This document shows, in pieces, positions 10,901 through 18,181 of a DNA stretch of 22,138 bases. Source of the stretch: Baffinella frigidus (Eukaryota; Cryptophyceae; Cryptomonadales; Baffinellaceae); assembly GCA_026770585.1 (NCBI GenBank), contig MU646315.1, positions 441,678 to 463,815 on the forward strand, written 5' to 3'. Position 1 is the stretch's first letter, and every line of letters starts with the position of its first letter. Below the pieces are notes generated by a model. It did not search any database, had not been told where the DNA came from, and saw nothing but the letters and a program-made list of their open reading frames with translations. Both the position numbers and the translations under genes were made by a program.

Positions 10901-12342
10901 CCCCAGGGAAACTCTTGAAGTTTGTCAAGTTGGAGCGGTTGACATCCGCAGTCGCATCGTCGAACATGCCTTGCCTCACAACCCCACCCATCAGGCTGGA
11001 GTCTCCTGCGCATTTCATAGGCTCGATTCAGACTCCTCAAGCGGTTCACATCCGCAGCCGTATCCTCCAACATGCCTTGCCGAACAACCCCACCCATGTC
11101 TCCGTCGGGTCCTGTTTTAGGGTTTCGGGGGTTTAGGGGTTAGCATAATAGAGGTAGAGGTGTGTATAATTGATTTATATGTTACCCCACCCATTAAGCC
11201 GGAGTCTCCTGCACATTTCAGACATTTCAGAGGCTCGATTCAGACTCCTTTACACATTTCAGACTCCTCTGACTCGAACATTTTGTTGACTCGACCATTT
11301 CAAACCCTGACGCGGACTTTGTTACGAAACATGACTCGGCCATCCAGAGTTGCAGAGTTCCAGAGTACATTGCTCACACTGAGACGCTACGAAATTCACC
11401 AAAATGAACGCTACGAAATTCACCAAAATGCAACCTGTCAACCACACAACGGGCTCGACCATTTCAAATCCCCAGTGGAGAACTGGGGTCTCCGAGTTTG
11501 TGAGGCAGAAGGGCGGCGATTTAGAGTTTAGGGTTTAGAGTTTAGGGTTTGGGGAAAGCACACCTCGCATCAGCGCGGTCAGAAACCGGGCGTAGTCGCT
11601 GGGCGAGATCAAAAGCCCCTGCTTGAGGGTTTAGGGTTTAAGATTTAGGGTGTGGGGTGTAGGGTTTAGGGTTTGGTGTTTAGGGTTTAGGGTTTAGGGT
11701 TTAGGGTTTAGGGTTTAGGGTTTAGGGTTTAGGGTTTAGGGTTTAGGGTGTTGGGGTTTAGGGTTTAGGGTTTAGGGTTTAGGGTTGAGGGTTGAGGGTT
11801 TAGGGTCTAGGGTTTAGGGTTTGGGGTTTAGGTGATTAGGGGATTAGGTGTAGGGTCTAGGGTGTAGTTTTTAGGGTGTAGGGTTTAGGGTTTGGGGTTT
11901 GGGGTTTGGGGTTTAAGGTTTCGGGTTCTAGGTTGAGGGTTTGGGGGTTACCCCGGCAGGCGAAGTGGGGCCCCGGGAGAAAGTTGGATCGTCTTGCATC
12001 CCCACCGGCCTGTGCGTATTCGATTTATTAGCCACGCCAGGACGATCAAAACATCCACTTTTGACATCTTTCGAGGGAAACCTCTTGAATCCTTAGGTCA
12101 ACCACGTCAGATCTTACGTGGACAAGGCGTCGGTGCCCCTCAACCAATCTGGCGTGGAGACAATACTTACATTCTTCACAAGGGGTTCACGGTGGTGTAG
12201 GGGGGAGTATATCGAGTGTTCCGATTTATTACCGAGGTTCTCCTATTGACCAAGCCCAAACCGTCGCCACGGTCGAGGTGGGTATCGCCGCTCCACGCAC
12301 TGCCTACTCTCGATGTGGCTGTATGGCCCTCCTCTCTCGCTG

Positions 12343-18181: not shown

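Follow-up and report, generated by a model that had tools for sequence, protein, structure and literature searches.

In the cryptophyte alga Baffinella frigidus there is an oriented class of introns built from a telomere-type repeat; judged by homology, and as read from the genome sequence, it occurs in three or more unrelated genes of this one alga. The repeat is the heptamer TTTAGGG, which we take to be the cryptophyte telomere sequence, and in the introns it is the C-rich strand (CCCTAAA; hereafter, C-sense) that lies in sense. The best explanation, to which we assign a probability of roughly 0.6, is that these are spliceosomal introns with a C-sense telomeric array as their body, which would have arisen from telomeric DNA put repeatedly into coding sequence. 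The analysis concerns a 22,138-nt stretch of DNA (the window; positions 441678–463815 of contig C13 in a 382,457,362-base assembly) and a sample of loci elsewhere in the genome. The main claim is carried by those introns that were checked by homology.

On the minus strand of the window, ten exons (E1–E10; Table 1) join into a single open frame of 226 codons, interrupted by nine introns. All nine have GT–AG ends and their removal restores a conserved frame, as is the case for U2-type introns. The 226-codon product matches the beta-lactamase fold (PF00144; E = 4.6e-22), and its alignment with protein P0001 (56% identical) is ungapped at four of the five junctions left by the telomeric introns (I1–I5); the third of these junctions lies inside a variable, gapped loop. 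A named Baffinella protein, P0010, shares 66% identity across 44% of the query length, and E1 is similar to it. Two more exons, E11 and E12, were located by tblastn, and their ends are approximate. By the positions in the exon model, E2 presumably holds the serine, and E3 the lysine, of the SxxK motif. I1 splits these two residues, so the active site would need correct I1 removal. When paralogues were sought in the alga's own genome for a comparison of intron positions, ten matches were obtained, every one of them at the window locus; Rfam and tRNA scans of the window found nothing.

Table 1. Features of the window, listed in transcriptional order for the beta-lactamase-fold gene, then for the two plus-strand genes.
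Feature	Position	Strand	Description	Basis
E1	18057..18200	-	N-terminal coding exon; 18200 is not a defined 5' end	exon model, P0010 similarity
Intron	17029..18056	-	ordinary, 1,028 nt, heptamer-free	exon model, heptamer scan
E2	16989..17028	-	RIPVAS-; SxxK serine (presumed)	exon model
I1	16816..16988	-	telomeric intron, 173 nt, 98% C-sense heptamer	exon model, heptamer scan
E3	16772..16815	-	44 nt (SKWVSAAVLLALVQ); SxxK lysine (presumed)	exon model
I2	16456..16771	-	telomeric intron, 316 nt, 99% C-sense heptamer	exon model, heptamer scan
E4	16382..16455	-		exon model
Intron	15293..16381	-	ordinary, 1,089 nt, 1% heptamer	heptamer scan
E5	15215..15292	-		exon model
I3	14965..15214	-	telomeric intron, 250 nt, 98%; first 14 nt match the start of the next exon at 10/14
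E6	14898..14964	-		exon model
Intron	13747..14897	-	composite, 1,151 nt; decayed arrays at 13744-13993 up to the acceptor; pseudo-exon E7' inside
E7	13668..13746	-		exon model
I4	13291..13667	-	telomeric intron, 377 nt, 98%; a single GT and a single AG throughout
E8	13251..13290	-		exon model
Intron	12010..13250	-	ordinary, 1,241 nt, without sense heptamer	heptamer scan
E9	11952..12009	-		exon model
I5	11619..11951	-	telomeric intron, 333 nt, 96%	exon model, heptamer scan
E10	11564..11618	-	GLLISPSDYARFLTALMR	exon model
Array	11517..11556	-	short C-sense array at the donor end of the intron that follows E10	heptamer scan
E11	10878..11006	-	approximate ends; more partial copies near 11106 and 11209	tblastn
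E12	9606..9647	-	approximate ends (QWHYSFGHWIECYQ)	tblastn
Last intron, left-hand gene	3477..3954	+	read by eye; C-sense array from ~3740 abuts acceptor CCCTAAACCAG
Intron, right-hand gene	20822..21632	+	811 nt; C-sense arrays mid-intron (20961-21126)

A first-pass annotation of the window had described the five introns I1–I5 as heptamer tracts with only a few nucleotides left before each splice site. Their coordinates proved exact to the base, each running from GT to AG on the minus strand, and the description of their content held as well: at a coverage threshold of at most three mismatches per 14-mer, they are 96–99% heptamer, with 0–7 nt before the array and 0–2 nt after it. The three ordinary introns of the gene contain almost no sense heptamer; the fourth further intron is 17% heptamer, and its array abuts the acceptor. 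Across the window, 21 heptamer runs were found, some of them beyond the interval 11564..17028, and on one strand heptamer covers 2,429 bases, versus 73–169 in five Markov-resampled sequences. In a placement test on 20 of the 21 runs (the smallest, 32 nt at 1651–1682, was omitted), five begin and end within 12 nt of the two ends of an intron. When the 20 runs were placed at random 10,000 times, a single coincidence arose in 56 placements and two arose in none.

The repeat is widespread in the assembly, with 53,120 exact (TTTAGGG)3 sites (25,832 + 27,288) and 27 sites of the reversed pattern (13 + 14). The arrays are internal, in the window on contig C13 and in sampled stretches at 290–310 kb of 1.26–2.12-Mb contigs, the ends of which may not be chromosome ends. 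The sample consisted of 21 stretches of 10 kb, with 49,307 letters among 210,000 bases and N at all other positions (13 of the 21 stretches are all N); heptamer arrays of at least 60 nt make up 18.3% of the sampled letters. Seven loci exceeded 400 letters; exons were predicted on both of their strands, using a heptamer-blind model trained on 356 codons of window genes, and the higher-scoring strand was kept: the minus strand for L031 (174.8 vs 36.5), L048 (81.4 vs 21.1) and L027 (64.4 vs 14.2), and the plus strand for L035 (21.2 vs 9.4). Loci L018, L036 and L037 did not exceed 4.1 on either strand and were left out of the intron counts. The predicted introns are GT–AG by construction. On the minus strand of the window, the same predictor does poorly: of the ten exons it gets one exactly right, places another to within 2 nt and finds part of a third, and it misses all five reported introns. 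The 50 introns that it predicts in the four kept loci are hence approximate. The kept strand of L035 scores lower (21.2) than the wrong strand of L031 (36.5) and is accepted because of its RPN3 homology, while the L048 and L027 predictions stand without a homology check.

Two of the four loci were identified. L031 is HUWE1 (PDB sequence search, E = 3.8e-7), with an alignment that is ungapped across three telomeric introns, and L035 is the proteasome subunit RPN3 (PF25573, 3.3e-39; PDB, 2.6e-41), ungapped across one. Pfam searches with the L031, L048 and L027 predictions, and with three pieces of L031/L048, returned no family; L048 adjoins L031, and both may be one gene. Together with 12 introns in the window, the 50 predicted introns form a set of 62. 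The C-sense heptamer share is at least 50% in 23 of these (heptamer-rich introns), 15–50% in 19 (middle introns), and below 15% in 20 (poor introns), while the G-sense share reaches 50% in none and at least 15% in five. Heptamer-rich introns are unevenly spread: 13 of 20 at L031, 5 of 9 in the minus-strand gene of the window, 3 of 10 at L048, 1 of 14 at L027, 1 of 6 at L035, and 0 of 3 on the plus strand of the window. Heptamer density was compared inside and outside introns. In the four loci, sense heptamer makes up 36.8% of predicted intron bases and 0.7% of exon bases, and also 18.5% of bases outside the models, which may not be intergenic; the corresponding antisense values are 2.4%, 0.0% and 0.2%.

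These results bear on whether the introns could be an artefact or a product of chance, i.e., intergenic repeats into which introns have been read. Simple repeats can mimic splice sites, I1–I5 were first read from sequence alone, and the predictor by itself misses all five. However, matches to conserved proteins continue across nine telomeric introns out of the 23 (in the beta-lactamase-fold gene five, in HUWE1 three and in RPN3 one), and the placement test gave five coincidences in 20 runs where none of 10,000 random draws gave more than one. We regard an artefact as extremely improbable.

The heptamer-rich introns share a fixed geometry: in 23 of 23, the array lies no more than 13 nt from the donor and from the acceptor (0–13 nt on each side). 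Array orientation is uniform within the sampled loci for 61 of 64 arrays (none of 200,000 random draws reached this), or for 55 of 57 under a stricter array definition, and in the plus-strand genes of the window it is again the C strand that lies in sense. Near the 5' edge (10 nt or less away), 45 of 64 arrays have a GT, as against 26 with the control dinucleotide TG; at the opposite edge GT is found in 25. The 15 arrays of the window, taken by themselves, show no GT excess (GT near the 5' edge in 11, TG in 13). Near the 3' edge, at the same distance, 47 of 64 arrays have an AG; the figure is 30 at the opposite edge, but the GA control reaches 47 as well. Donors of the form GTNNAC, present in 11 of 23 heptamer-rich introns, 2 of 19 middle and 3 of 20 poor ones, correspond to the heptamer register, as if an exonic G were joined straight to TAAACCC or a variant; the upstream exon ends in G at 21 of the 23 heptamer-rich introns. 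Acceptor endings include CCCTAAACCAG and CGAAAGCAG. This recurrence in unrelated genes (HUWE1 locus and RPN3), with strict orientation and fixed geometry, supports the proposal that these are a distinct intron class.

The orientation has a plausible cause in the repeat itself. Pure CCCTAAA has neither GT nor AG and repeats CTAA, a sequence that is likened to the core of the branch point. As spliced, I1–I5 each contain 1–2 GT and 1–5 AG; inverted, they would contain 24–51 GT and 19–49 AG (41 and 49, respectively, for I4). CTAA occurs 15–39 times per intron. In a C-sense array without GT or AG, internal mis-splicing would hardly be possible, and the spliceosome would be left with one donor at the 5' edge and the first AG at the 3' edge; the inverse would be full of decoys. 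We thus read the heptamer-rich introns as self-defining bodies that splicing would keep in one orientation, and we consider it probable that splicing acts as a filter on array orientation. If freedom from decoys accounts for the orientation, the insertions themselves need not have been oriented. Selection against AG-making variants was also considered as a mark of introns and was set aside: the same depletion is seen in the other arrays of the window, so that it does not single out introns, and it may be mutational.

Two origins had been put forward in the first-pass annotation: telomerase-type repair of breaks inside introns, and intron creation by repeat capture. The former fits less well, because random insertion within old introns would leave ordinary flanks; these are absent in all 23 heptamer-rich introns, which also disfavours expansion inside old introns. 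The latter is favoured by a duplication-like signal, which stops short of proof. When the first 14 nt of each heptamer-rich intron are compared with the start of the next exon, 118 of 322 positions match at offset 0, versus 62–89 at 20 other offsets, and 0 of 4000 permutations are as high. Leaving out the first four positions (fixed GT, common exon starts) gives 74 of 230 matches versus 55.0 in permuted comparisons, again with 0 of 4000 as high. The signal is absent in the 19 middle and 20 poor introns. It falls short of significance over short lengths (p = 0.116 at k = 6, 0.058 at k = 8), is significant at k = 10 to 20 (p at most 0.005), and becomes weaker at k = 14 without the best three introns (p = 0.027), all on few introns with mostly predicted boundaries, six acceptors having been shifted by 3 nt ahead of the second duplication test. 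Among I1–I5 tested singly, the signal is seen in I3 and weakly in I4, and is absent from I1, I2 and I5. Two HUWE1 introns are further examples, and several other introns have no such resemblance. The signal looks like a duplicated target site that has since drifted, which favours insertion into exons and makes creation by insertion likelier than expansion.

The main rival to insertion is that an old, ordinary intron gained a small telomeric insert, or a few heptamers close to its acceptor, after which slippage or unequal exchange enlarged the array until it took the place of the intron body. HUWE1 and RPN3 are old genes, and the arrays of I1–I5 are both degenerate (substitutions or indels at 11–14% of positions) and locally homogenised (in I4, for example, 13 of 38 substitutions are the same change, 7A>T). 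The 19 middle introns may further represent a series, with the array no more than 13 nt from the acceptor in nine and from both ends in four. Expansion is at odds, however, with the lack of ordinary flanks on both sides of the 23 heptamer-rich introns and with a duplication-like signal that appears at offset 0 alone and in this class alone; on this evidence we hold it to be rather unlikely. A mobile, introner-like element with telomeric content, inserting into exons and giving introns of shared ancestry, would account for the many copies in several genes, for the exon-final G, for the duplication-like signal, and for the acceptor endings AAGCAG and ACCAG, which recur by eye. Yet the donors differ among introns and, by eye, the edges of the 23 introns show no common non-heptamer sequence and no terminal inverted repeat, and such an element seems to us quite improbable.

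Under insertion of telomeric DNA into coding sequence, the reading that we prefer, insertion would have happened many times, through either (i) telomerase acting at breaks, or (ii) telomeric copying during end joining. C-sense insertions would be tolerated, as they would be spliced out at once, and the arrays would then drift, expand, gather other insertions, and recombine. For the parts of this scenario our confidence differs: intron creation, rather than expansion, is slightly favoured, and telomerase as the maker of the arrays is doubtful. A broader version is put forward tentatively, in which telomeric DNA would be a genome-wide intron-creation engine—arrays being written into exons at staggered breaks by telomerase or telomere-templated repair, only the GT/AG-free orientation surviving because it would be spliced precisely from the outset, and the arrays later driving exon duplication by mutual recombination. 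If this were true, thousands of introns, some of them in housekeeping genes, would be former break repairs. The preferred reading itself predicts more G than A or T before TAAACCCTAAACCC genome-wide.

Several known systems invite comparison. TTTAGGG is called the Arabidopsis-type telomere in a passage of PMC8226300. Human short interstitial telomeric sequences (ITSs), as treated in passages of PMC7215372, resemble the introns described here in being telomere-type arrays inside chromosomes; no human ITSs lie in exons and 31% lie in introns, a share said there to fit random insertion, and short ITSs are treated as one-step insertions. Unlike ITSs, the arrays of the 23 heptamer-rich introns occupy nearly the whole distance between the splice sites and keep to one orientation. 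Introners, in the main text of PMC9860276, are likewise many introns of similar sequence in several genes, whereas here the body is a heptamer array and no terminal inverted repeats were noticed by eye; the terms 'telomer', 'tandem repeat' and 'cryptophyte' do not occur in that main text. In break-repair intron gain, as set out in the main text of a review in which 'telomer' does not occur, filler DNA lies between short direct repeats, and a table gives five unambiguous events; the filler here would differ in being telomeric, recurrent and orientation-filtered. Passages of a paper on Amorphochlora amoebiformis (PMC12730881) describe extensive intron gain without clear introners, as in intron-rich algal genomes; the sole 'telomeric' in them refers to TAACCC at contig ends, and they report no telomeric introns. 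An open-access literature search, by titles and the starts of abstracts (subscription papers and preprints being outside its scope), found no description of telomeric introns.

Traces of the repeat are also found in predicted proteins. An artificial heptamer translation was compared with protein sequences, and the best 120 of 1,260 matches (E up to 10) were considered; the NCBI-named proteins among the matches listed number 16, consisting of 15 from Baffinella frigidus and one from Burkholderia. Four Baffinella frigidus proteins were inspected and contain long runs of heptamer translation; such runs in the predicted proteins of this species are probably intron sequence annotated as protein. 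In P0141 (RRM) and P0162 (Dus) a conserved domain passes straight into heptamer translation, and in P0203 exon-like sequence does so. These three, which are metagenomic or Baffinella predicted proteins, look like read-through of telomeric introns, suggesting that the class may exist in other environmental algae. P0180 (PF00697) has an in-frame insert in mid-domain that resembles heptamer translation. Exact AAACCCT runs occur in viral contigs as well (L002, 2733–2819; L007, 2020–2132; and seven other IMG/VR loci). These nine IMG/VR loci with (CCCTAAA)4 were set aside as unrelated to the introns: in the two that were read, L002 and L007, the DNA is phage-like and small genes flank the repeat.

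The window contains two further genes, both on the plus strand. The right-hand gene (20147–21696) has a four-exon model that is 78% identical to the metagenomic protein P0121, for which no Pfam domain is on record; the match runs on past the last junction. Two of its introns, 204 and 144 nt long, are ordinary, and a short intron is thus not always telomeric. The left-hand gene, read by eye, ends at 4014. Within it, at 2323–3484, is a tandem exon-like unit, membrane-helix-like and ending CGGCGCAG/GTCCCTC, the copies of which are 74–89% identical in pairwise matches and spaced roughly 190–260 nt apart. Tandem exon copies are frequent across the window. A copy of exon 7 (E7') lies at ~14130–14190, in the intron upstream of exon 7, and is followed by heptamer-like sequence, as is the true exon 7; unequal exchange between telomeric introns flanking an exon would yield such a copy. 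Partial tandem copies of exon 11 lie at 11006, 11106 and 11209, and tandem copies of the start of exon 5 at 15273–15326 and 15543–15596. The window also contains a dispersed family of ~163 bp, 77–88% identical and in both orientations (4964–5131, 8086–8253, 17663–17827, 18362–18531 and 18648–18812), which resembles foldback or MITE-type elements.

The origin of new introns is an old problem for which few examples have been caught. In Baffinella frigidus, 23 of the 62 introns examined carry a simple sequence that is easy to recognise, and the properties of that sequence (no GT, no AG, and repeated CTAA) would provide a mechanistic reason for the immediate splicing of one orientation. Break-repair intron gain becomes testable here through strain comparison and splicing reporters. 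The arrays suggest that a gene may tolerate telomeric sequence whose C strand lies in sense, and on the sequence evidence the DNA of chromosome ends would be one source from which new introns arise.
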